DNA from: Phycisphaerales bacterium
GTDB lineage: Bacteria > Planctomycetota > Phycisphaerae > Phycisphaerales > SM1A02
Assembly (NCBI GenBank): GCA_022446885.1
Contig: JAKVBU010000024.1
Coordinates: 11,468 to 55,827 of the forward strand
Direction: 5' to 3'
DNA length: 44,360 nt
Notes under the pieces: model-generated
The model's input: the letters and a program-made list of their open reading frames with translations, nothing else
Database searches by the model: none
What the model was told of the DNA's origin: nothing
Part shown: positions 18,738-32,347 of the stretch, in pieces
How positions within the stretch are numbered: the first letter of the stretch is position 1
Layout of the letters: every line of letters begins with the position of its first letter
Made by a program: the position numbers and the translations under genes

Positions 18738-21431
18738 ATGGCCGCAGGACGCACATCAAAGACTCGCAACAAGATGATCTACTGCTTTGGTCGAACGAAG
18801 ACCGAGGGCAGGGCGAGCCAGAAGCAGTTGCTGGGCGGAAAGGGAGCCAATCTCGCCGACATGACGTCGATCGGACTTCCGGTGCCTCCGGGATTCACGA
18901 TCACGACTGAGACCTGTGCTGACTACAACGCACGTGCAGGGAAGATGCCCTCTGGCCTGATGGACGATGTCCGCAAGGCCGTGAAGCGACTGGAACGAGA
19001 GACCGGCAAGCAGTTCGGCTCAGACTCGAACCCGCTGCTTCTCTCGGTGCGATCAGGCGCCGCCGTCTCGATGCCGGGCATGATGGACACCATTCTCAAT
19101 CTGGGATTGAATGACAGTGCTGTAGAGGGCCTGGCTGCTGGAACCGGCAATGCTCGCTTCGCCTGGGACGCCTACCGCCGACTCATCAACATGTACGGCG
19201 ATGTCGTGCTCGGCGTGCACCATCACCACTTTGAAGCCGAATTCGACAAGGTGAAGAAGGCGTGCAAGGTTGCTGAAGACACCGATGTCTCCGCTGAGGG
19301 GCTCAGGGACCTCTGCAGTCGCTACAAGGCTGTGGTGCGAAAGCACACGGGCAAGCCCTTCCCGCAAGATCCGATCAAGCAACTCCAGCTCGCCATTGAG
19401 GCCGTCTTCAAGAGTTGGTCGAGCGACAAGGCGATCAGTTACCGCCGCATCAATGAGATCACAGGCCTTGCCGGAACTGCCGTGAACGTGCAGACCATGG
19501 TCTTTGGAAACATGGGCGATGACTCGGGAACAGGGGTGGCGTTCACCCGTGATCCCAGCACCGGCAAAAACGTCTTCTATGGTGAGTTTCTCGTGAACGC
19601 CCAGGGCGAGGATGTGGTTGCCGGTATCCGCACACCGCGTCCAGTCTCGGGCATGAAGCGTTGGAATGCCGCCGTGCACAAGCAGCTCATGGCGATCAGG
19701 TCCAAACTGGAGAAACACTACCGCGACGTGCAGGACATCGAGTTCACGATCGAGCGCGGCACGCTGTACATGTTGCAGACGCGAACGGGCAAGAGAACTG
19801 CTGCTGCCGCAGTTCGGATCGCTGTTGAGATGGCTGACGAGCGACTCATCACCAGAGATGAAGCCCTGCTCCGAGTGCCTGCCGGCGACATCGTTCAACT
19901 GCTCCTGCCCAGTTACTCGGCCGCAGACAAGAAGGGCGCGGACATGTTGTCCAAGGGCCTGCCTGCCTCACCGGGCGCGGCATGCGGCAAGCCCGCCTTC
20001 ACGGCTGAAGAGGCAACCGAACGGGCGCAAGCGGGTGAGGCTGTGATTCTCGTGCGGCGTGAGACGTCTCCTGAAGATGTCGAGGGCATGCACCATGCCG
20101 CAGGAATCCTCACGAGCACTGGCGGAATGACCTCGCATGCGGCCGTCGTGGCCCGTGGTTGGGGCAAGTGCTGTGTGGCGGGTGCTGGCGACATCGAGAT
20201 CAATGAGAAAGGCCGCTCGTTCACGGTGGGCGGGCGTCGATTCACCCACAAGGATGAGATTTCCATCGACGGGGGCACGGGCGAGGTCATGGCCGGGCGG
20301 ATCGAAGGATCGACGCCCAAGATGAGTCGCCACTTCTCAACGCTCATGAAGTGGGCGGATGCCAAGCGGCGACTGAAGGTGCGCACGAACGCCGACACCC
20401 CCGACGACAGTGCCCGCGCTCGCAGCTTCGGGGCCGAGGGCATCGGCCTCACTCGTACCGAGCACATGTTCTTCGAGGGTGATCGCATCACTGCGATGCG
20501 CGAGATGATTCTGGCTGACACGATCAAGGACCGTGAGCGGGCACTCAAGAAGCTGCTGCCCTATCAGCGAAAGGACTTCGTGGGCATCTTCACGGCGATG
20601 AAGGGGCTTCCCGTGACAGTTCGGCTGCTCGATCCGCCCCTGCACGAGTTCCTCCCCCACGAGTCGGCTGCCCAGAAGGAGATCGCTCGTCAACTCAAGG
20701 TGAAGCCCGCTGAAGTTGCCAAGCGAGTGGCGGCACTGCACGAAGCAAATCCGATGATGGGCCACCGTGGTTGCCGTCTGGCCGTGACCTATCCGGAAAT
20801 TCTCCGCATGCAGGTGACGGCGATCGTGGAAGCGGCTATCGCATGCCGCAAGAAGCGCATTGACGCCCGTCCGGAGATCATGATTCCACTCATCGGTACT
20901 CGGGAGGAACTGGCCCAACTGCGAGCACAGGTACTCGAGACCATGGAAACCGTCCGGGTGAAGAAGAAGTTCGCCGGCAAGTTGGGCATTCCTGTGGGCA
21001 CGATGATTGAGATTCCACGCGCTGCCGTCACGGCGGGCGAAGTCGCCGAAGTGGCCGACTTCTTCTCGTTCGGTACCAACGACCTCACGCAACTGACCTA
21101 CGGCTACTCGCGTGACGACATCAATGGATTCCTGCCCGACTACATCTCAAGTGGCATTCTGGAGCGGGATCCCTTCCAGTCCATCGACGCTGCAGGTGTA
21201 GGACATCTGGTGGATCACGCCTGCAAGCACGGTCGGAGCACCAAGCCGAAGCTCAAGTTGGGCGTGTGTGGCGAGCACGGTGGCGACCCAGACTCAGTGG
21301 ACTTCTTCGAGGGCGTGGGCCTCGACTACGTGTCGTGCTCACCTTTCCGCGTGCCCACAGCTCGGTTGGCTGCGGCCCAAGCTGTGATTCGTCGCAAGGC
21401 TGAGACCAAGAGCCGTCGCAAAAAGAAGTAG
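18738..21431 (+). CDS. ppdK: Pyruvate, phosphate dikinase
   Basis: A 897-residue enzyme that interconverts pyruvate + ATP + Pi and PEP + AMP + PPi, linking glycolysis and gluconeogenesis. The N-terminal nucleotide-binding domain starts at GRTKTEGRASQKQLLGGKGA. The swivelling domain has phospho-accepting His467 in GGMTSHAAV. The C-terminal PEP/pyruvate barrel has FGTNDLTQLTYGYSRDD and catalytic Cys844 in VCGEHGGDP. Length is normal for the bacterial enzyme. The start is ATG 18738 with AGGAG upstream; a TACACT box lies at 18700-18705. The end is Lys/Arg-rich. A hairpin separates it from the convergent HIT gene. Confidence 0.98.
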   Translation: MAAGRTSKTRNKMIYCFGRTKTEGRASQKQLLGGKGANLADMTSIGLPVPPGFTITTETCADYNARAGKMPSGLMDDVRKAVKRLERETGKQFGSDSNPLLLSVRSGAAVSMPGMMDTILNLGLNDSAVEGLAAGTGNARFAWDAYRRLINMYGDVVLGVHHHHFEAEFDKVKKACKVAEDTDVSAEGLRDLCSRYKAVVRKHTGKPFPQDPIKQLQLAIEAVFKSWSSDKAISYRRINEITGLAGTAVNVQTMVFGNMGDDSGTGVAFTRDPSTGKNVFYGEFLVNAQGEDVVAGIRTPRPVSGMKRWNAAVHKQLMAIRSKLEKHYRDVQDIEFTIERGTLYMLQTRTGKRTAAAAVRIAVEMADERLITRDEALLRVPAGDIVQLLLPSYSAADKKGADMLSKGLPASPGAACGKPAFTAEEATERAQAGEAVILVRRETSPEDVEGMHHAAGILTSTGGMTSHAAVVARGWGKCCVAGAGDIEINEKGRSFTVGGRRFTHKDEISIDGGTGEVMAGRIEGSTPKMSRHFSTLMKWADAKRRLKVRTNADTPDDSARARSFGAEGIGLTRTEHMFFEGDRITAMREMILADTIKDRERALKKLLPYQRKDFVGIFTAMKGLPVTVRLLDPPLHEFLPHESAAQKEIARQLKVKPAEVAKRVAALHEANPMMGHRGCRLAVTYPEILRMQVTAIVEAAIACRKKRIDARPEIMIPLIGTREELAQLRAQVLETMETVRVKKKFAGKLGIPVGTMIEIPRAAVTAGEVAEVADFFSFGTNDLTQLTYGYSRDDINGFLPDYISSGILERDPFQSIDAAGVGHLVDHACKHGRSTKPKLKLGVCGEHGGDPDSVDFFEGVGLDYVSCSPFRVPTARLAAAQAVIRRKAETKSRRKKK

Positions 21432-23478: not shown

Positions 23479-23864
23479 ATGAGTTGGTACCACGAGGACC
23501 TCCCGATGAGCGACCCCATCTTCAGGGCGATTGCGATGGTGCGTGACAGGCTCATTCGAGTGGTTGACCTGCTGCAGGCGGGCGATGTGCCCTTTGCGGT
23601 GTGCGGCGGATGGGCGGTGGCTGGATGGGTTGCGACGATCGATGAAGATGCCACCCGAACGACGAAGAACGTCGACATCCTCCTGCGTCGTGAGGACCTC
23701 GATCGAGCATCAGAAGCGCTCGCCGTGGGGGATTTCACTTTGTTGAGGTGAACGGTGTGCCCATGTTTTTGGATGGCCCGGACGGAACCCCCAAGCGGGC
23801 GGTGCACGTCATCTGGGCCAACGAACGCACCCGCCCCCGTGACGAACTGCCAGCCCTTGACTGA
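23479..23864 (+). pseudogene. Decayed AbiEii-like nucleotidyltransferase
   Basis: The first frame encodes MSDPIFRAIAMVRDRL, FAVCGGWAVAGW and TTKNVDILLRREDL, typical of small nucleotidyltransferases of the AbiEii/MNT type. It stops at 23749-23751. The match continues in another frame as GFHFVEVNGVPMFLDGP and RAVHVIWANERTRPRDELPALD, ending at 23862-23864. Loss of one G from the run at 23727-23731 explains the shift. The usual DxD pair reads N-V-D, so one catalytic Asp is also gone, and the C-terminal third is missing. A sequencing error could explain the shift but not the other lesions. Confidence 0.75.
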
Positions 23865-24023: not shown

Positions 24024-24542
24024 GTGGGGCGGGAGAGGCCCCAGATCGAGGATCGCCCACAGTTAGATGCCCCCCTCGTAGATGCCCCCCTCGCGGCAGA
24101 TGAAGCCAGCGCAGGCGTGCTGCAGTGGACTGCGCACCCCTTGCGGCAGCATCGGGCCAGGGGTGTATTGGCGATCGCGGTCATCATCGGTTGCGGCCTC
24201 ATGGTCGCAACCAGCTTCAAGACGCCCCTCACGGGCCTGTTGGTGGCCGGCGGGGCTATGGCCGTATTGCTGCTCACGCTGAATCGGTTCTTCCTGCCAT
24301 CTCGCTTTGCCATCGACGACGAGGGCATCAGTGCCGCCTGGCCTTTGAAACGACAGCGGCTCTGTTGGGCAGATCTGCGGCGATTCGCTCACGATGATGA
24401 GGGTGGGTTCCTGTCTACTCGAGCCAATCCCACCCGCTGGCAGTTGCTCCGCTCGGTCGGCGGAATGCACGTGCTGTTTGGCCCTCGCCCTGCAGTTGTC
24501 ATCCAAGCAATCAAGAGGCGATTGCCTGAGGTGTCCGCATGA
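24024..24542 (+). CDS. Two-TM PH-like hypothetical protein
   Basis: A 172-residue protein of unknown function. The N-terminal ~30 residues are acidic and include a duplicated DAPL unit. LQWTAHPLR leads into two membrane helices (about residues 46-66 and 70-88). A soluble C-terminal domain (RFAIDDEGISAAWPLKRQRLCWADLRRFAHDDEGGFL) has the strand pattern of bacterial PH-like domains. The start is uncertain: GTG 24024 is the furthest upstream in frame and lacks a Shine-Dalgarno. A -10-like TAGACT lies at 23995-24000. It overlaps the next gene by ATGA, which makes it the likely first gene of the MutL operon. Confidence 0.7.
   Translation: MGRERPQIEDRPQLDAPLVDAPLAADEASAGVLQWTAHPLRQHRARGVLAIAVIIGCGLMVATSFKTPLTGLLVAGGAMAVLLLTLNRFFLPSRFAIDDEGISAAWPLKRQRLCWADLRRFAHDDEGGFLSTRANPTRWQLLRSVGGMHVLFGPRPAVVIQAIKRRLPEVSA
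24064..24093 (+). repeat. Direct repeat, two 15-bp copies
   Basis: TAGATGCCCCCCTCG occurs twice head to tail (24064-24078 and 24079-24093), in frame, encoding the duplicated Asp-Ala-Pro-Leu in the N-terminal part of the PH-like protein. This is likely recent slippage. Confidence 0.85.
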
Positions 24543-24922
24543 GTCTGAAGGCAGCCCTGAAGCATGCATTCCATGTGGATCCGCCCGGTCCGGCTGAGCC
24601 CGATGATCGCACACGTGACATCGTTGACACCGTGTGCCGGTCTATCGTGAAGCGGGGCATGGTCATGCCGGCGCTCATGACGCTGGACATGTGCCGCCCG
24701 CTGAATTTCGTGGCAGCTCAGGCCATGCACGTCATCAAGCCCGCTGCTGAAATCGTCCTCGACACTGAGTCCTATACGCAGTTTGCGCTCTTTCTGGAAA
24801 AGCGTGGCAGCGTCGAATATCTCTGCAATCGTCTCGAACAACATGCCGCGGGCGAGGTGCCCGATGGGGCTGAAGAAGTCTCCGACTCAAGCCCCGGCTC
24901 AACCCCCGACCAAGACTCATGA
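24539..24922 (+). CDS. Small conserved soluble protein of the MutL operon
   Basis: A 127-residue helical soluble protein without a name I can give. The core (IVKRGMVMPALMTLDMCRPLNFVAAQAMHVIKPAA, then SYTQFALFLEKRGSVEYLCNRLE) is well ordered, and the C-terminal ~25 residues are acidic and disordered. No catalytic motif or metal site is apparent. It is coupled at both ends by ATGA overlaps (24539-24542 and 24919-24922), so equimolar production with the ATPase is likely. A partner or adaptor role for the MutL-family protein is inferred from this coupling only. Confidence 0.75.
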   Translation: MSLKAALKHAFHVDPPGPAEPDDRTRDIVDTVCRSIVKRGMVMPALMTLDMCRPLNFVAAQAMHVIKPAAEIVLDTESYTQFALFLEKRGSVEYLCNRLEQHAAGEVPDGAEEVSDSSPGSTPDQDS

Positions 24923-26745
24923 CCGATACACCGACTCTGGATCCTGACAAGATCAAGGTGATCCTCGCCACCGACTGTGGCAGCACGACCACCAAGGCCA
25001 TCCTCATTCAGTATGTGGACGGCGGCTATCGCCAAACCCATCGCGGCGAGGCGCCCACTACGGTTGAAAAGCCCTTCGCCGACGTGACCATGGGCGTGGT
25101 CAATTCGGTCACAGAAATCGGTGAGTTGGCCGGCCGCAAGCTGGTCGGCGACGACGGCCGAATCATCACGCCGGCCACTGACACTGAGGGATGTGACATC
25201 TACATTTCCACGTCCAGCGCCGGCGGTGGCCTGCAGATGATGGTTGCGGGCGTCATTGCCGAAATGACCGCGGCCAGCGCCAAGCGAGCGGCATTGGGTG
25301 CCGGTTCAATCGTGATGGATGTGATCGCCGCCAATGACGGCCGTCGCCCGCACGAGCAGATTCAACGCATCCGTGATCTGCGGCCCGACATGATTCTTCT
25401 CTCGGGTGGCACTGACGGCGGCACCACCGACAAAGTCGTGCAGCTTGCCGAACTCATCGCGCCGGCGAAGCCCCAGCCACGCTTCGGCAGCGACTACGAG
25501 ATGCCCATCATTTACGCGGGCAATAATCAGGCTCAGGGCAGTGTGTCAGAGGTCTTCTCCGAGGGCGGATTCGACCTGCAGATTGTTGACAACCTCCGCC
25601 CCGTCCTCGAGCGAGAGAATCTTGGGCCGGCTCGTGACAAGATTCATGACATCTTCCTCGAGCACGTGATGGCCCAGGCCCCCGGGTACGACAAACTTAT
25701 GGGCTGGACAGGTGCGCCAATCATGCCCACGCCCGGGGCAGTGGGGGACATCCTTCAGACTGTGGCTCGCATCCAGGGCATCAATGTCGTGGGAGTGGAC
25801 ATCGGTGGAGCCACCACCGACGTCTTCAGTGTGTTCGACGAGACGTTCAATCGAACGGTGTCGGCAAATCTGGGCATGTCGTACTCCATCTCCAATGTCT
25901 GCGCCGAGGCGACCATGCCCAATGTGCTGCGTTGGGTGCCGTTCGACATGGACGAGCGTGAGTTGCGCAACCACGTCAAGAACAAGATGATCCGGCCAAC
26001 CACCATTCCCCAGACGCGTGAAGCGCTCATGTTTGAACAGGCGGTGGCCCGTGAGGCGCTCCGGCTGGCGTACAAACAGCACAAGGAGTTCGCTACAACG
26101 CTCAAGGGCGTGCAGCAGCAGCGAACGGTGGGTGACACCTTCACGCAGGAGACCGGCGGCGAGACCATCGTCAACAACATGAAGCTCGATTTGCTGGTGG
26201 CATCAGGTGGTGTGCTCAGTCATGCCCCACGGATGCACCAGACGGCCATGTTGCTGATCGACGCCTTCGAGCCCGAGGGCATCACCATGCTCGCCAAGGA
26301 CTCGATCTTCATGATGCCCCATCTGGGTGTGCTCGCCAGTGTGCACCCCAAGGCGGCGGAGGAGGTCTTCGATCGCGACTGCCTGATCTATCTGGGCACG
26401 TGTGTGGCTGCAGCTGGCAACGTCAAGGCGGGCAAGACGGCATTCAGTTGGTCCTTCAATGGCCACAGTGGCGAGATCAAGGGCGGCGAGATGGATCTGA
26501 TTGACCTGCCGCTGGGCGAGACGGCCACCATCACGATCAATCCGGTCCGCGGTGTGGATCTGGGGGCAGGCCCCGGCAAGAAGGTCGAGCGTGAGATCAA
26601 GGGCGGCACCGTCGGGGTGATTCTCGACGGTCGCGGCCGGCCGCTGGCGTTGCCCGAGGAACGCACTGCTTGCCAGGCGACCATTCAGGGGTGGATCGAC
26701 AGTTGCGACATGTACGTTGAAGAGGAGGCCACGGCAGCCGTCTGA
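24919..26745 (+). CDS. MutL/GlmL-family ASKHA ATPase
   Basis: A 608-residue protein of the glutamate-mutase MutL family. Two actin/Hsp70-type phosphate-binding motifs are clear: ATDCGSTTTKAIL at about residues 14-26 and VVGVDIGGATTDVF near 290-303. Family blocks STSSAGGGLQMMVAG and MILLSGGTDGG are also present. In clostridia MutL (GlmL) lies between the mutase subunits and is thought to act as a reactivase-type chaperone. Here no mutE/mutS or other B12 mutase gene is in the window; all neighbours are membrane or unknown proteins. I infer an ATPase that drives or assembles the membrane complex encoded downstream. The gene following starts 19 bp after its stop. Confidence 0.9.
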   Translation: MTDTPTLDPDKIKVILATDCGSTTTKAILIQYVDGGYRQTHRGEAPTTVEKPFADVTMGVVNSVTEIGELAGRKLVGDDGRIITPATDTEGCDIYISTSSAGGGLQMMVAGVIAEMTAASAKRAALGAGSIVMDVIAANDGRRPHEQIQRIRDLRPDMILLSGGTDGGTTDKVVQLAELIAPAKPQPRFGSDYEMPIIYAGNNQAQGSVSEVFSEGGFDLQIVDNLRPVLERENLGPARDKIHDIFLEHVMAQAPGYDKLMGWTGAPIMPTPGAVGDILQTVARIQGINVVGVDIGGATTDVFSVFDETFNRTVSANLGMSYSISNVCAEATMPNVLRWVPFDMDERELRNHVKNKMIRPTTIPQTREALMFEQAVAREALRLAYKQHKEFATTLKGVQQQRTVGDTFTQETGGETIVNNMKLDLLVASGGVLSHAPRMHQTAMLLIDAFEPEGITMLAKDSIFMMPHLGVLASVHPKAAEEVFDRDCLIYLGTCVAAAGNVKAGKTAFSWSFNGHSGEIKGGEMDLIDLPLGETATITINPVRGVDLGAGPGKKVEREIKGGTVGVILDGRGRPLALPEERTACQATIQGWIDSCDMYVEEEATAAV

Positions 26746-26764
26746 GGCGCCGGGCAACAGATCA

Positions 26765-27892
26765 ATGGCCAAGGCCTATACACCAGGACTGCTCGTCACC
26801 ACGCATCGCCGCCATCGTTGTCGGCGCATATTGCCTATCGCTGGTGACGTGAATGTGAGCAAGGGCGATCAGGTGGTTGCAGATCAGGTTGTCGCTGAGA
26901 CGAGCCTGCCCGGCGACGTCAACCCGGTCAATCTTGCCAATCAACTTTCCATGCCCGCCTCTGACGTGATGGACTGCATGGTCGTGAAGGAAGGCGACAC
27001 AGTTGAGATTGGCGACACCGTTGCCCAGACCAAGGGCATCTTCGGATTCATGAAGACGACCATCCCGAGCAAGGTGGCCGGAACGGTGGAGACCATTTCG
27101 CCCGTCACCGGCCAGATGATCGTGCGCGGGGCGCCTTTGCCGGTGCAGGTGAAGGCGTACATGTCAGGCGAAGTTGTCAATGTGCTGCCGGGCGAGGGTT
27201 GTGAGATCGAGGCCGACGTGGCCTATGTGCAGGGCATCTTCGGCGTCGGAGGCGAAACGGCCGGCACCATCAAGATGGCCTGTCAGGCCCATGACGAGGA
27301 ACTCGACGCCAAGCACATCACCGATGACATGGCCGGGGCAATCATCGTCGGCGGTGGTCGAATGACGGCTCAAGCCGTGGAGCGGGCCCGTGCCGTAGGC
27401 GCGGCTGCCATCGTCTCAGGTGGCATCGACGACGCCGACCTCAAGAACATGCTGGGCTACGACCTCGGTGTGGCAATCACCGGCCGCGAGCAACTGGGCA
27501 TCACGGTGATCGTGACCGAGGGCTTCGGTGACATCGCCATGGCCGCTCGCACCTTTGAGATGCTCAAGGGGTTTGCCGGGCAGGAGGCCTCAGTCAATGG
27601 GGCAACCCAGATCAGAGCGGGCGTCATGCGGCCCGAGATCATCGTGCCGCTCGATGCCGCCCCGCCGGCGAGCGAAGGATCGGGCAGATATGAAGAAGGG
27701 CAGTTGGAGATCGGTCGACCTGTGCGATGCATCAGAGACCCGCACTTTGGGGTGATCGCCGAGGTGTCGGGATTGCCCAGCGAGCCGGCTGTACTTGGCA
27801 GTGGCTCCAAGGCTAGAGTGCTCGAAGTGAAACTCCCCACCGGCGAGCACGCGGTCGTTCCTCGTGCCAATGTGGAACTCATCGAGGAGTGA
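26765..27892 (+). CDS. Barrel-sandwich/KOW domain soluble protein
   Basis: A 375-residue cytosolic protein with no signal peptide. The first ~150 residues look like repeated barrel-sandwich hybrids (GDVNVSKGDQVVADQVVAE, VVKEGDTVEIGDTVAQTKG, TIPSKVAGTVETISPVTGQ), a fold shared with lipoyl domains, RnfC/NqrA and RNA polymerase inserts; no lipoyl/biotinyl lysine is evident. The middle has a Rossmann-like segment (AAIVSGGIDDADLKNML, ITVIVTEGFGDIAM). The last ~65 residues resemble a KOW/SH3 barrel (RPVRCIRDPHFGVIAEV to VVPRANVELIEE). I used ATG 26765; an upstream in-frame start lies in the previous gene's tail. It is possibly an adaptor between the ATPase and membrane subunits. Confidence 0.78.
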   Translation: MAKAYTPGLLVTTHRRHRCRRILPIAGDVNVSKGDQVVADQVVAETSLPGDVNPVNLANQLSMPASDVMDCMVVKEGDTVEIGDTVAQTKGIFGFMKTTIPSKVAGTVETISPVTGQMIVRGAPLPVQVKAYMSGEVVNVLPGEGCEIEADVAYVQGIFGVGGETAGTIKMACQAHDEELDAKHITDDMAGAIIVGGGRMTAQAVERARAVGAAAIVSGGIDDADLKNMLGYDLGVAITGREQLGITVIVTEGFGDIAMAARTFEMLKGFAGQEASVNGATQIRAGVMRPEIIVPLDAAPPASEGSGRYEEGQLEIGRPVRCIRDPHFGVIAEVSGLPSEPAVLGSGSKARVLEVKLPTGEHAVVPRANVELIEE

Positions 27893-27897
27893 GGTTC

Positions 27898-29232
27898 ATG
27901 CGAATCCAGGCTGCAGCGTTGCTCGCCTGTGTGCTGTCCGTGACGGGATATGCGCCGGCTGACATCGCACCACCGGGCAAGGTGAAGGCCCTGAATGCCC
28001 CCGACGACAAGGGCAACCAGGTCGAGGTCTATTGGACGCCATCTCCGAATGACGCGGTTCCCGGCGCGATTCAGGGCTACGTGATCTATCGGCACAAGGT
28101 CGAGACGGGCGAGGGCCTCGAGAGCATCCCCACCGAGTGGGATCCCGATCTGTTCGCTGGGTCCGAGCCCATCGGCGACGTGCCCTACGGCGTGACGGAA
28201 TTCGTCGATGAGAATGGTGAGCCGGACACAACCTATCTGTACGGCGTGGCCGCGGTCACTGAGAACGAGCAGTCTTCGGTGACACTGGCGTCAGATCTGG
28301 TGACGCCCCGGATGGAGTGGATCAACAAGGGCAAGATCTGGTTCCTGATCATCATGCTCACCATCAGCGGCGTGCTGATCTGGTTCGTTCGACATGCCAA
28401 GAAGGGTGGTGAGGTCAAGGTTCGAAAGATCGCGGGCCTTGAAGCCGTCTCCGAGGCCGTGGGTCGAGCCACCGAGATGGGCCGTGAAGTGCTCTTCGTG
28501 CCGGGCATTCTGGACATCAACGACATCCAGACGGTTGCCGGCATCACGGTACTGAGCAATGTGGCCCGCACCTCGGCTGAGTATGACGCCCAACTAGAAG
28601 TGCCCACCGCCCGATCGCTCGTGATGACCACGGCTCGCGAGACCGTGCAGGCTGCCTATCTGGGCGCTGGTCGCCCGGATGCATATGACGAGAATCGCAT
28701 CTACTACCTGACGGATGAACAGTTCGGCTACACCGCCGGCGTGCAGGGAAAGATGGTGCGTGACAAGCCCGCCGCCTGCTTCTACATGGGGGCCTTCTAC
28801 GCCGAGTCGCTGATTCTGGCGGAGACCGGCAATTCGATCGGCGCCATTCAGGTGGCCGGTACCGCCATGCCCTCACAGCTTCCCTTCTTCGTGGCGGCCT
28901 GCGACTACACGCTCATCGGCGAGGAGTTCTTTGCGGCCTCGGCCTATCTGTCGGGCGATCCAGAGCAACTGGGCTCGCTCAAGGGGCAGGACGTGGGCAA
29001 GGTGATCGCTACCTTCCTGCTGGTGATCGGCTGTCTTCTGGCCACGCTTGCGGGTGTCTCCGGGCCGGAGAAAGGCTCCGATGCCGAGCCTGGGGCATTC
29101 CACACATCCATGCAGGATGCGACGGACTACATCAAACAGAACATCCTCGGCAAGGAGGGCTTCATGGTCGAGGCCGATCGCGGGTCATTCGAAGAGACCG
29201 AAGCGAACACCGGTGGAGGTGGTGACCAATGA
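27898..29232 (+). CDS. Fibronectin III - DUF6754 membrane protein
   Basis: A 444-residue protein. A signal peptide (MRIQAAALLACVLSVTGYA) is followed by a fibronectin type III-like domain (about residues 25-120: APPGKVKALNAPDDKGNQVEVYW... YLYGVAAV), a membrane helix near 140-157, then a long conserved cytoplasmic block matching DUF6754 (ATEMGREVLFVPGI, RPDAYDENRIYYLTDEQF, YAESLILAETGNSIGAIQVAG, ACDYTLIGEEFFAASAYLS) and a final helix near 375-392. ATG 27898 is preferred because GAGGAG lies eight bases upstream; GTG 27889 would overlap the previous stop but lacks a binding site. It is linked to the next gene by ATGA. DUF6754 has no known function. Confidence 0.85.
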   Translation: MRIQAAALLACVLSVTGYAPADIAPPGKVKALNAPDDKGNQVEVYWTPSPNDAVPGAIQGYVIYRHKVETGEGLESIPTEWDPDLFAGSEPIGDVPYGVTEFVDENGEPDTTYLYGVAAVTENEQSSVTLASDLVTPRMEWINKGKIWFLIIMLTISGVLIWFVRHAKKGGEVKVRKIAGLEAVSEAVGRATEMGREVLFVPGILDINDIQTVAGITVLSNVARTSAEYDAQLEVPTARSLVMTTARETVQAAYLGAGRPDAYDENRIYYLTDEQFGYTAGVQGKMVRDKPAACFYMGAFYAESLILAETGNSIGAIQVAGTAMPSQLPFFVAACDYTLIGEEFFAASAYLSGDPEQLGSLKGQDVGKVIATFLLVIGCLLATLAGVSGPEKGSDAEPGAFHTSMQDATDYIKQNILGKEGFMVEADRGSFEETEANTGGGGDQ

Positions 29233-30119
29233 TCGCCAAGCGGACGATTCCACTCCTCATTGCGGCGATCGTGGGCTTCCTGCTCATCGCCACATACTTC
29301 GTGCCCTACACGGAGCAGTGGGGTGCCGAGGCGATGGAGATGTTCATCATCCTCGCCGCCGCAGCCATGGTGCTGGGTGCTGGCAATCTGGTGATGATGA
29401 ACCTCTCCAAGATCTCCCGACGCAGCGAAGGCTGGGGCTACGCGGCCATCACCTTGCTCGCGTTCACGGCAGTGCTGATCGTGGGGATCTTCAAGATTGG
29501 GGCCCATGGAACAGCTGTGGCGCCGGACAACGCATGGGCCTCTCCGCCGATTCAGGAGGGAGCGCCCTTCTGGTGGATCTACCAGTATGGCCTTGTGCCG
29601 CTGACGGCCACGATGTTCGCCATGCTGGCCTTCTACATTGCCTCGGCCGCCTTCCGAGCCTTCCGAGCCAAGAATCTCGAGGCGACGCTACTGCTGGGAA
29701 CGGCTTTCATCGTGCTGCTGGGGCAGGTGTATGCCGGCTACTGGTTGACGAGTTTCCTCCCCGATTTGCAGTCCTATGTCGACAGTTTCCCGGAGGCCCA
29801 GCGAGGCTTCGCAATGATTGTGGGCATGCAGGCTGAGTCGGGCGTCCCACTGAATGAACTCGTTGTGGCTGGGACTGAGTATGCGGCCCTGCCCGCCGGG
29901 CAGCAGGAATTGGCGACACAGATTCATCAACACCTCGACGGCTGGTGGTACCAGTTGCTCAACGGACTTCGGTTGGAGAACCTGACCTCGATCATTCTCG
30001 ACATCCCGCAGAAGGCGGGCAACCGAGCCATCACCATCGGCATCGCGCTTGGCATCGTGAGCACGTCGCTCAAGGTGCTCTTGGGCGTCGATCGCTCCTA
30101 TCTGGGATCGGAGGACTGA
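29229..30119 (+). CDS. Multi-pass membrane protein of the MutL operon
   Basis: A 296-residue integral membrane protein I do not recognise. About six helices are visible: residues 6-26, 36-55, 72-90, 112-138, 152-175 and 268-288. The loop between the last two (about residues 178-262) is larger and likely extracytoplasmic, with SGVPLNELVVAGTEYAALPAGQQELATQIHQHLDG-type helical content broken by conserved Trp/Tyr. The start overlaps the DUF6754 gene by ATGA with GGAGGTGG upstream. Its short spacing to the next gene (3 bp) places it firmly in the operon. Confidence 0.78.
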   Translation: MIAKRTIPLLIAAIVGFLLIATYFVPYTEQWGAEAMEMFIILAAAAMVLGAGNLVMMNLSKISRRSEGWGYAAITLLAFTAVLIVGIFKIGAHGTAVAPDNAWASPPIQEGAPFWWIYQYGLVPLTATMFAMLAFYIASAAFRAFRAKNLEATLLLGTAFIVLLGQVYAGYWLTSFLPDLQSYVDSFPEAQRGFAMIVGMQAESGVPLNELVVAGTEYAALPAGQQELATQIHQHLDGWWYQLLNGLRLENLTSIILDIPQKAGNRAITIGIALGIVSTSLKVLLGVDRSYLGSED

Positions 30120-30122
30120 TCC

Positions 30123-30995
30123 ATGATGAACTTCCTCCGCAATCTCGACCGCCGCATCGTGTTCCTGCTCATGGGTTTGGCCGTGGCAGTACCGGTCCTG
30201 TTGCGAGCATCATTCCCCGAGCATGTCCAGCCGATGGCCCGCAGCGTCTTCGAGGAGATCGAAGCCCTGCCCGACGGCTCCAAGGTGCTCTTGAGCTTCG
30301 ACTTCGATCCCGGATCGCAGGGCGAGTTGCTGCCGATGGCCATGGCCTTTACCCGCCACTGCGCCGAGAAGAAGCACAAGATGTACTTCATGTGCCTTTG
30401 GCCCTTGGGTGAGCCATTTGTCGAAGATGCGATGAACGTGGTCCTCGGCCTCGAGTATCCCCAACTCAAATATGGCACCGACTATGTGTCGTTCGGGTAC
30501 AAGCCCGGCAACGAAGCCGTCATCAAGAACTGCATCGTTGATCTGAAGGCTCTGTTCATCACCGATTCACGCAAGACGGATCTCAATAAGATCCCCATGA
30601 CAGCCAACATCGTGTCGGCCAAGGCGATGGACCTCATCATCAACATCAGCGCCGGTGACCCGGGCACGAAGCAGTGGGTGCAATACGCAGCCACCCCCGG
30701 CGACATTCCGCTGGTTGCTGGCTGCACCGGCGTGCAGGCTCCCTTGCTCTATCCATATGTGCCCGAACCATTGCGTGGCCTGCTGGCGGCGATCAAGGGT
30801 GCGGCGGGCTATGAGCAAGTGCTGAACGAGGCCTATCCCAATCTGGCCGAGCCGGCGATCGTCAAGTCGAAGTACTCCACGACGGCGGCCCTGCAGAGGA
30901 TGGGACCACAGTTCGTGGCCCACCTGTTGATGGTCGGTCTGATCCTGCTGGGCAACATCATCTACTTCGTGGACAAGAAGGGAGGCGGCCGATGA
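30123..30995 (+). CDS. Doubly anchored Rossmann-like membrane protein
   Basis: A 290-residue protein with one N-terminal helix (about residues 12-29) and one C-terminal helix (about 263-281) flanking a soluble alpha/beta domain. The alternating strands and helices (KVLLSFDFDP, KHKMYFMCLWPLG, NCIVDLKALFIT, AMDLIINISAG, IPLVAGCTGVQAPLLYPYV) suggest a Rossmann-like fold; no nucleotide-binding loop is recognisable. Hydrophobicity does not decide the sidedness of the domain. It overlaps the next gene by ATGA. I know of no characterised homologue. Confidence 0.76.
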   Translation: MMNFLRNLDRRIVFLLMGLAVAVPVLLRASFPEHVQPMARSVFEEIEALPDGSKVLLSFDFDPGSQGELLPMAMAFTRHCAEKKHKMYFMCLWPLGEPFVEDAMNVVLGLEYPQLKYGTDYVSFGYKPGNEAVIKNCIVDLKALFITDSRKTDLNKIPMTANIVSAKAMDLIINISAGDPGTKQWVQYAATPGDIPLVAGCTGVQAPLLYPYVPEPLRGLLAAIKGAAGYEQVLNEAYPNLAEPAIVKSKYSTTAALQRMGPQFVAHLLMVGLILLGNIIYFVDKKGGGR

Positions 30996-32347
30996 GTGAC
31001 GCTTCCGCCAAGACGAACATGCCTGCGTCTTCCAAGGGTGCATGGGGCATCGTGATCGCCGTGCTGGTGCTCGGCATGGTGCTGGCCGGCGTGCTTCTGG
31101 ATGCCGGGCAGGTGTGGGTGACGTCGAAGACAGTGACCTATGAAGAGGTTGAGCGTACCCATCACACCGACGAGTGGTTCGAGCACAGCCAGGCCACGGA
31201 CCGAATTGACAGAGACAAGGCAGCGGAAGCATCCACTCTGGCCATCGTCGACACGGCCCAGGAACACGCTGTGGACGTGAACGACAGTGAGGCCTACGAG
31301 TCAGTGGTGCACAAGTCGCGGGTGCGTGGTCTGACCGTGACTGGTGAGTGGCATGAATCCCAGAGCGACACCCTCCGAGAGGCCCTGGCCGACGGGGGCA
31401 CGCTCGGAGAGCGGGTGTCCTGGGAGGAGCGCAAGGTGGTCAGCCGGCTTCAACTGAAGCATGAGCAGATGGTTTCCGCTGACATAGGACAGGACCAGAT
31501 CGACAACCTCGTCTCCAAGGCCTACGAGGGCTTGCAGGAGGAGGCGACCGAGGCCGGGCTGCAGTCCATCAAGATGTCGGCAGCGGCTGCACCGGCGGCA
31601 GGTCAGCCGGGCCAGGTGAACATTGTTGCCACCGCGAGTGGATACCCCGCCGGTTCCAGCCTGTCCATGAACCGCACGATCGGTGTGTGGCTCGCGGCGA
31701 TTCTCACTTTGTGCATCATGTCCTTCCTCGCAGGGGACAATCCCTTCTACAAGGCCGCAGAGGCCATCGTGGTGGGGGCCTCGGCAGCCTATTGGATGGT
31801 GCTCTCTTTCTGGACGGGCATCGTTGACAAGCTGCTGGTGAATCTGATCCCGGATATCACGCGGGCGTGGGCTGTACCCGGGCTGCCTGAGTCGGCGCAA
31901 TTCAGTTGGATCTACCTGATCCCTCTGGTGCTGTCATGCATGCTGATCTGGCGTCTCTCGCCCAAAGGTGGGTGGATCGCCCGGTGGCCGCTGGCCTTTG
32001 TCATCGGTGCCACGGCAGGATTCCGGTTGCTCTCCCACCTGGAGAGCGACTTCCTGCTGCAGATCAAGCTCACGATCACCTCGCTGTGGGTTGTTGGAGC
32101 CGACGGGTTCGAATTCTGGAACTCGGTAGGCGCGATCGTCGTGCTGCTCAGCGTGCTGTGTTGCCTGGTCTACTTCTTCTTCTCCATGGAACACAAGGGT
32201 GCCGTGGGCAAGACGGCTCGAGCGGGTATCTACGTGCTGATGGTCACCTTCGGCGCAGCATTCGGGCTCACCGTAATGGGCCGTATCACCCTGCTGACGG
32301 AACGATTCGACTTCCTCTTCAAGGACTGGCTGCATCTATTGGGATGA
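30992..32347 (+). CDS. Large membrane protein, last gene of the MutL operon
   Basis: A 451-residue protein. An N-terminal helix (about residues 18-40) leads to a ~190-residue extracytoplasmic region rich in charged helices (EEVERTHHTDEWFEH, QIDNLVSKAYEGLQEEATEAG) with coiled-coil character. About seven membrane helices follow from residue 230 to 445. No transporter signature is apparent. It ends 43 bp before the rpmF promoter, so it closes the operon. A GC-rich stretch follows the stop, but I see no convincing intrinsic terminator with a T-run. Confidence 0.78.
   Translation: MSDASAKTNMPASSKGAWGIVIAVLVLGMVLAGVLLDAGQVWVTSKTVTYEEVERTHHTDEWFEHSQATDRIDRDKAAEASTLAIVDTAQEHAVDVNDSEAYESVVHKSRVRGLTVTGEWHESQSDTLREALADGGTLGERVSWEERKVVSRLQLKHEQMVSADIGQDQIDNLVSKAYEGLQEEATEAGLQSIKMSAAAAPAAGQPGQVNIVATASGYPAGSSLSMNRTIGVWLAAILTLCIMSFLAGDNPFYKAAEAIVVGASAAYWMVLSFWTGIVDKLLVNLIPDITRAWAVPGLPESAQFSWIYLIPLVLSCMLIWRLSPKGGWIARWPLAFVIGATAGFRLLSHLESDFLLQIKLTITSLWVVGADGFEFWNSVGAIVVLLSVLCCLVYFFFSMEHKGAVGKTARAGIYVLMVTFGAAFGLTVMGRITLLTERFDFLFKDWLHLLG

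Follow-up and report, generated by a model that had tools for sequence, protein, structure and literature searches.

Proteins of the MutL family have so far been known only as helpers of B12-dependent enzymes. Here, we describe a cluster of eight genes, g1 to g8, in a 44,360-nucleotide stretch of DNA (the window) from a Phycisphaerales bacterium of the phylum Planctomycetota (assembly GCA_022446885.1, contig JAKVBU010000024.1, positions 11,468 to 55,827), in which a MutL-type ASKHA ATPase is encoded together with membrane proteins (g5 to g8), a pairing that points to an unstudied cell-envelope machine.

The eight open reading frames (ORFs) all lie on the same strand between positions 24024 and 32347 (Table 1). 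Five of the junctions are four-base overlaps – ATGA at g1/g2, g2/g3, g5/g6 and g7/g8, and GTGA at g4/g5 – and the other two leave 19 bp (g3/g4) and 3 bp (g6/g7) between the genes, so that the tight coupling described in the initial annotation can be read directly from the window. The 19-bp gap assumes that g4 starts at the conserved ATG at 26765, which is most likely, rather than at the upstream TTG at 26717; the start codon of g1 is uncertain. Hydropathy peaks number two in g1, three in g5 (the first a likely signal peptide), six in g6, two in g7 and six in g8, with none in g2, g3 or g4. The genome containing the window (2.87 Mb in 108 contigs) has one MutL gene and one gene for a DUF6754 protein. 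Because the gene order recurs across phyla, it is not due to chance.

Table 1. Genes of the MutL–DUF6754 cluster, with positions in the window (TM, transmembrane helix; aa, amino acids)
Gene	Position	Strand	Product and predicted features
g1	24024..24542	+	172 aa, two TMs, then a small C-terminal domain, possibly bacterial PH
g2	24539..24922	+	127 aa, soluble, no known family
g3	24919..26745	+	MutL-type ASKHA ATPase, 608 aa, with a C-terminal extension of ~120 aa past the Pfam domain
g4	26765..27892	+	375 aa, soluble; barrel-sandwich N-terminal part, alpha/beta middle, SH3/KOW-like C-terminus; domain calls weak
g5	27889..29232	+	Likely signal peptide, periplasmic FN3, TM, DUF6754 alpha/beta domain, TM
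g6	29229..30119	+	Polytopic membrane protein of no known family; flanked by g5 and g7 in related loci
g7	30123..30995	+	TM, Rossmann-like domain, TM
g8	30992..32347	+	N-terminal TM, insert absent from most homologues, polytopic C-terminal membrane domain; no known family

The identities first given to g3 and g5 are secure, with g3 matching PF13941 (MutL) at 423.7 bits and g5 matching PF20539 (DUF6754) at 407.2 bits (cut-off 27), both far above threshold. The phosphate motifs of g3, DCGSTTTK and DIGGATTD, are intact, and each is exact in 67 of 70 aligned rows. g3 falls under all three NCBIfam cut-offs for GlmL-type proteins (NF040745, 225.9 vs 475 bits; NF040744, 202.8 vs 600; TIGR01319, 171.3 vs 204.05). 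A control GlmL-type protein from the planctomycete genome G197 (L049) passes TIGR01319 (272.6 vs 204.05) and misses the other two (361.2 and 275.6), and so only TIGR01319 discriminates among the three models. The identity of g3 to this control is 31%, to an operon-type planctomycete protein (L063) 71%, and to the operon-type MutL proteins of five more loci (L147, L157, L158, L197 and L200) 58–64%. When scored with the operon model, complete operon-type proteins give 949–1096 bits, truncated ones 625–927, and other MutL proteins 48–436; in a tree with a small outgroup, for which every second high-scoring row was taken, the operon type is a single clade (support 0.86), and the three other sampled MutL proteins fall outside it.

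A second, divergent MutL, in open frames of 680–1007 aa, is present alongside the operon type in genomes G124, G139, G169, G199, G200 and G210. Weak g4-like matches lie within the divergent open frame in G124 and G169, some with in-frame stops, and at L201:13847–16825 a divergent MutL adjoins a glycosyltransferase gene.

MutL and g4 are fused into one ORF in four Marinimicrobia loci (L104, L110, L112 and the contig-truncated L096). Mean column identity is 63% in an alignment of 54 g4 rows. The initial annotation had called g4 a barrel-sandwich/KOW protein, and the first part of that call finds weak support in a Biotin_lipoyl match barely over its cut-off (24.3 vs 22.1 bits); matches to RnfC_N (23.8 vs 25.6) and NQRA_N (13.3 vs 25) lie under theirs, and KOW appears in weak PDB matches only (SPT5, E-value 0.15). 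Biotinylation of g4, suspected from a birA-like gene upstream, was rejected, as the candidate lysine is a lysine in 77 of 95 rows and not invariant, and its spacing is unlike that of the biotin-carrier motif. Sequence searches of the PDB gave no convincing relatives for g3, g4, the g5 core or g7, and the matches to g5 cover its FN3 part.

Using an alignment of 17 DUF6754 domains as query, a scan of one public genome collection matched at least 581 stretches, of which at least 580 were confirmed as DUF6754 relatives. We kept 80 of these loci and added 20 stretches from a scan of the phylum, giving 100 loci (L061–L160), many of which end at contig edges. Titles of the kept loci name Planctomycetota, Marinimicrobia, Zixibacteria, WOR-3/Stahlbacteria, Cloacimonadota, Latescibacterota, Gemmatimonadota, Fermentibacteria/Aegiribacteria, Acidobacteria, a Deltaproteobacterium and a Caldithrix-named genome. 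Among the matches listed, the closest full-length named ones over DUF6754 are from Phycisphaerae/Phycisphaerales (L081–L083; 83–85% identity), and two shorter matches (L089 and L090) reach 88–89%.

The four membrane genes g5 to g8 – the quartet – form a recurrent module. They stand in the order g5-g6-g7-g8 on one strand, counted at any distance, in 87 of the 100 loci, and 19 loci have two or three quartets. By gene, g5 is found in 99 loci, g6 in 90, g7 in 89, g8 in 87, g4 in 61, g3 in 52, g2 in 39 (mostly directly before MutL) and g1 in 22; the loci were mostly fetched through DUF6754, so that the presence of g5 is given, and the locus without it (L061) was chosen for its MutL. g3 is followed by g4, or fused to it, in 49 loci. 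The 13 loci without a whole quartet are mostly short or cut contigs, and four of them (L064, L065, L113 and L120) have g4 and g5 with g6 to g8 not nearby. When 120 g5 sequences are placed in a tree, tandem copies from different loci cluster mainly according to their position (first, second or third), and the copies are therefore probably old and distinct. Sequences that do not fit this pattern simply are L121, L075, L146 and the pair L157/L160.

Some quartets are interrupted. In L110, 6.8 kb separates g5 from g6, and in L137 other genes lie between g5/g6 and g7/g8. Between two quartets of L153 (13269–15136) are NfeD-like, SPFH/stomatin-like and CBS-domain-like genes, identified by eye.

Horizontal gain or misbinning of the window was suspected when DUF6754 was found in none of eight same-order and none of four other same-class genomes first sampled. 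This suspicion is not supported, as DUF6754 is present in 24 of 25 genomes of the family (that of the window included) and in 5 of 16 others of the order.

Co-occurrence was examined in 199 genomes of the phylum, in which DUF6754 is found in 50, MutL above cut-off in 53, g4 in 48 and g7 in 51. DUF6754 and MutL occur together in 45 genomes, with DUF6754 alone in five and MutL alone in eight (Fisher P 1e-30); DUF6754 and g4 are together in 45, with five and three alone (P 3e-35); and DUF6754 and g7 are together in 50, with none and one alone (P 1e-46), these P values ignoring shared ancestry. The five genomes with DUF6754 and without MutL (G014, G037, G041, G050 and G145) are 76–95% complete; a MutL match in G127 was below cut-off and excluded. 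Among those with MutL and no DUF6754, three have glutamate mutase E (G010, G040 and G098) and three are 72–79% complete (G053, G067 and G073), G067 having g4 and g7. Another, G197, has GlmL-type proteins with no match to PF06368 (glutamate mutase E); the one scored gives 375 bits with the operon model and has PrpF and amidohydrolase genes as neighbours, so further MutL contexts exist.

MutL and the membrane genes also keep company where they are not linked. Of the 48 loci lacking MutL, 32 were checked genome-wide and MutL was found elsewhere in 31. The MutL loci retrieved for 30 such genomes all match the operon model (625–1096 bits, the lowest being truncated or broken), and in the L128 and L145 genomes MutL lies just past the locus edge. 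The initial annotation had assigned this MutL to the membrane genes rather than to glutamate mutase, and named a condition that would refute this. The assignment is supported and the condition does not refute it: the window's genome has no glutamate mutase E, the membrane genes are conserved next to MutL in many phyla, and the two co-occur even when unlinked.

Structure predictions provide a partial view of the membrane proteins. The g5 model (predicted local distance difference test, pLDDT, 81.0) has an FN3 domain, a TM, the DUF6754 domain and a second TM. FN3, part of the initial annotation, is under cut-off by sequence (17 vs 25 bits) but clear in the predicted structure (Z 13.0, root-mean-square deviation 2.1 over 96 residues); because this domain filled the list of fold matches, we make no fold claim for the DUF6754 core. 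The g7 model (pLDDT 94.7, predicted template-modelling score 0.91) places a Rossmann-like domain between two TMs, with the PDB entry 1kjn as best match (Z 9.8 over 141 residues) followed by many Rossmann-like folds at Z 7–9, a generic result. The g5 core and g7 models share a matching order of helices and strands between their two TMs.

According to the positive-inside rule, positive charge marks the cytoplasmic flank of a TM. In g5 the 14 residues flanking the first TM carry a mean net charge of −0.13 before it and +3.98 after it, and in g7 the values are +1.18 before and −0.81 after; from these the DUF6754 domain is predicted to be cytoplasmic and the g7 domain periplasmic; the flanks of the second g7 TM are uninformative (+0.9 before, +1.16 after). 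Neither g6 nor g8, nor the homologues tried, matches any NCBIfam or Pfam family over cut-off, and g8 has a CoxD_Bacillus match far below it (19.6 vs 117.85 bits). g2 has no known family in the Pfam search. For g1, annotated at first as a PH-like protein with two TMs, the TM peaks are present and the only PH-type match is a sub-threshold one on a homologue (L108, bPH_6, 19.5 bits vs 22).

Genes of the Tol and Exb systems are occasional neighbours. Protein clustering places a TolQ/ExbB-type gene in 8 of the 100 loci, and Pfam, run on three of these (L147, L152 and L158), confirmed it in each. In the planctomycetes L063 and L084 it lies upstream of g2 with ExbD-like genes; in the Aegiribacteria/Fermentibacteria L147 and L149, ExbB lies after g8 with a TonB-dependent receptor gene in between, and has ExbD and TonB alongside; in the WOR-3/Stahlbacteria L152 and L143, ExbB follows g8 and five other genes, with ExbD, and TonB also in L152; and in Zixibacteria L139 and the unclassified L158 it is beside g4, followed in L139 by TolR-, TolA- and TolB-like genes (by eye). 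When L128 and L145 were extended (L195 and L196), TolQ/ExbB and ExbD/TolR genes were found divergent from g3, followed in L195 by TonB_2, TolB-type, OmpA and TPR genes (Pfam). A TonB-dependent receptor adjoins g8, or is one gene beyond, in L147, L149 and L198. From the MotA/ExbB density of 32 genomes, those bearing the adjacency included, 1.7 loci would be expected rather than eight (P 4e-4 if independent). We regard the adjacency as a weak hint, and a possible lead toward an envelope role.

The five genes between g8 and ExbB are in the same order in L152 (12853–15695) and L143 (6792–10047); in L152 the first is a DUF4388 gene and the other four have no Pfam family. A pyruvate phosphate dikinase-like ORF, at 18738–21431 in the window, is found close to the cluster in 10 of the 101 sequences compared (also L081, L108, L109, L125, L128, L139, L145, L152 and L158, with Phycisphaerae, Zixibacteria and WOR-3 represented) and is unexplained. 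Between the birA-like gene and g1 of the window is a 90-aa ORF (23479–23751) that by eye resembles the start of a nucleotidyltransferase-type gene and may be a remnant. Downstream, plsX begins a plsX-fabH-fabD-fabF group 330 bp from g8; a role in fatty-acid synthesis was considered and rejected, as plsX accompanies the cluster in 8 of 100 loci and the titles of all eight are planctomycete.

With the gene order and coupling, the fixed-order quartet and its tandem repeats, its co-occurrence with MutL and g4, the MutL-g4 fusion, and the intact ATPase motifs established, we consider it on balance probable that all eight gene products belong to one inner-membrane complex, and that a MutL-type ASKHA ATPase, dedicated to this complex and not serving glutamate mutase, drives or remodels it. 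In such a complex MutL and g4 would form a cytoplasmic ATPase unit, with g3, given its intact motifs, predicted to hydrolyse ATP and g4 docking the unit onto the cytoplasmic DUF6754 domain of g5. Binding and hydrolysis of ATP would alter the conformation of g5. By way of the g6 and g8 membrane cores the change could then reach both the FN3 domain of g5 and the g7 domain in the periplasm; the core of g5 and g7 are predicted to lie on opposite faces of the membrane. Where there are two or three quartets, these are probably non-identical subunits of one larger assembly. The complex probably serves the cell envelope of diderm bacteria, close to the Tol-Pal/TonB systems. The energy-driven envelope machine put forward in the initial annotation is a reasonable idea, to which the Tol or ExbB/TonB neighbours in four lineages add an independent, weak hint. 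More tentatively, the cluster may encode an ATP-driven transmembrane machine of a class not yet described in diderm bacteria. Its actin-fold MutL would act through a barrel-sandwich adaptor on a hetero-oligomer built from four-protein modules, in one to three paralogous sets, and would deliver work to the periplasm, and perhaps to the outer membrane alongside Tol/TonB.

Several observations weigh against a single dedicated complex. Linkage of the quartet is not strict, since g5 and g7 are far apart or on separate contigs in five planctomycete genomes that are complete or nearly so (G024, G087, G105, G137 and G194), and g2-g3-g4 is distant from the quartet in several other genomes. G037 (95% complete, 8% contaminated) has DUF6754 without MutL; the L153 genome, the sole exception of the 32 checked, has quartets without MutL; and G153 (99% complete) has an operon-type g2-g3-g4 with no DUF6754 or g7 match, an unexplained exception. 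Counted by lineage, Tol/ExbB neighbours occur in four vs 1.7 expected (P 0.09), so that this association could be chance. A common origin of g5 and g7, suspected from their motif order, is not demonstrated, as hhalign finds no sequence similarity (probability 1.2); their likeness is one of predicted secondary-structure order only.

An altogether different reading, that MutL is a B12-mutase reactivase lying beside the membrane genes by historical accident, would agree with the membership of g3 in PF13941 and with the presence in the window's genome of one methylmalonyl-CoA mutase, a B12-binding/MeaB protein, methionine synthase and one further B12-binding ORF. We find it highly improbable. Glutamate mutase E (PF06368) has no match in that genome (G000), and it passes the cut-off in 3 of the 199 genomes and in none of the 50 with DUF6754. 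Acyl-CoA mutase is absent from 19 of the 50, 13 of which are at least 99% complete, and an association of the cluster with this enzyme was rejected, the trend being negative (31 of 50 vs 114 of 149 other genomes; Fisher P 0.065). By gene content, then, the operon-type MutL subfamily is not the accessory of either enzyme; ornithine, lysine and other B12 mutases were outside the search. Acyl-CoA mutase moreover already has a known chaperone in MeaB, as stated in PMC10481361; in PMC5167688, MutL is the mismatch-repair protein, and we did not use it. The failure of g3 to reach the GlmL cut-offs and the recurrence of MutL with the same membrane genes across phyla also argue against a reactivase.

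A nearer alternative is that MutL and g4 are an ATP-driven chaperone for assembly or reactivation of a membrane complex that uses another source of energy, such as a proton gradient. Relatives of MutL, including GlmL and diol dehydratase reactivase, act by remodelling partner proteins; the MutL gene can lie far from the quartet; and the Tol/Exb systems whose genes lie nearby are proton-driven. The near-strict co-occurrence and the g3-g4 fusion fit chaperone and motor alike, and whether MutL is a motor or an assembly or remodelling factor cannot be told from sequence; we consider the chaperone unlikely, if the most credible of the alternatives. The complex could instead be a regulator or sensor, with FN3 and the periplasmic Rossmann domain as a ligand receptor and MutL as a nucleotide-dependent switch. 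The g7 domain may bind a ligand, the DUF4388 gene adjoins g8 in WOR-3/Stahlbacteria loci, and response regulator-like genes were noted by eye near the cluster in 5 of 101 sequences; however, none of the 45 neighbour clusters, inspected by eye, is a regulatory gene recurring beside the cluster across phyla, and a sensor appears distinctly improbable.

If an inner-membrane complex with its own MutL is correct, the MutL family has a second, membrane-bound role. A module that is old, ordered, partly tandem-amplified and equipped with its own ATPase probably matters to the cells that carry it, which, judging by the titles of the 80 kept loci, are planctomycetes and members of many phyla seen chiefly in metagenomes. 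One named strain, Thalassoglobus neptunius KOR42 (L120), has DUF6754, g4 and MutL, and so the cluster is testable there. In the open-access literature, where papers treat MutL as an accessory protein, we found no paper on the cluster and none containing DUF6754, PF20539 or PF13941; subscription papers and preprints were outside the search, and an earlier description is possible.

Comparison with known systems places the cluster near several. g3 is in the same Pfam family as GlmL/MutL (NF040745, TIGR01319, PF13941) over its whole length and has the ASKHA ATPase motifs, but unlike the GlmL/MutL of glutamate mutase it has an extra C-terminal region of ~120 aa, recurrent membrane partners and no glutamate mutase. 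The N-terminal part of g4 weakly resembles RnfC_N, below cut-off, as in RnfC/NqrA, although no other Rnf or Nqr subunit families are found in g1 to g8. Tol-Pal and TonB-ExbBD are likewise inner-membrane systems of diderm bacteria with genes sometimes adjacent to the cluster, and differ in drawing on the proton gradient and in that g1 to g8 include no ExbB/TolQ or ExbD/TolR family match. PilM of type IV pili, GspL of type II secretion and FtsA are actin-fold proteins of envelope machines. Unlike these, the cluster has no pilin, secretin, secretion ATPase or division gene among its 45 most recurrent neighbour clusters (by eye), and its membrane partners g5 to g8 belong to no known family; what it has in common with them is a cytoplasmic actin-fold protein paired with partners in the inner membrane.

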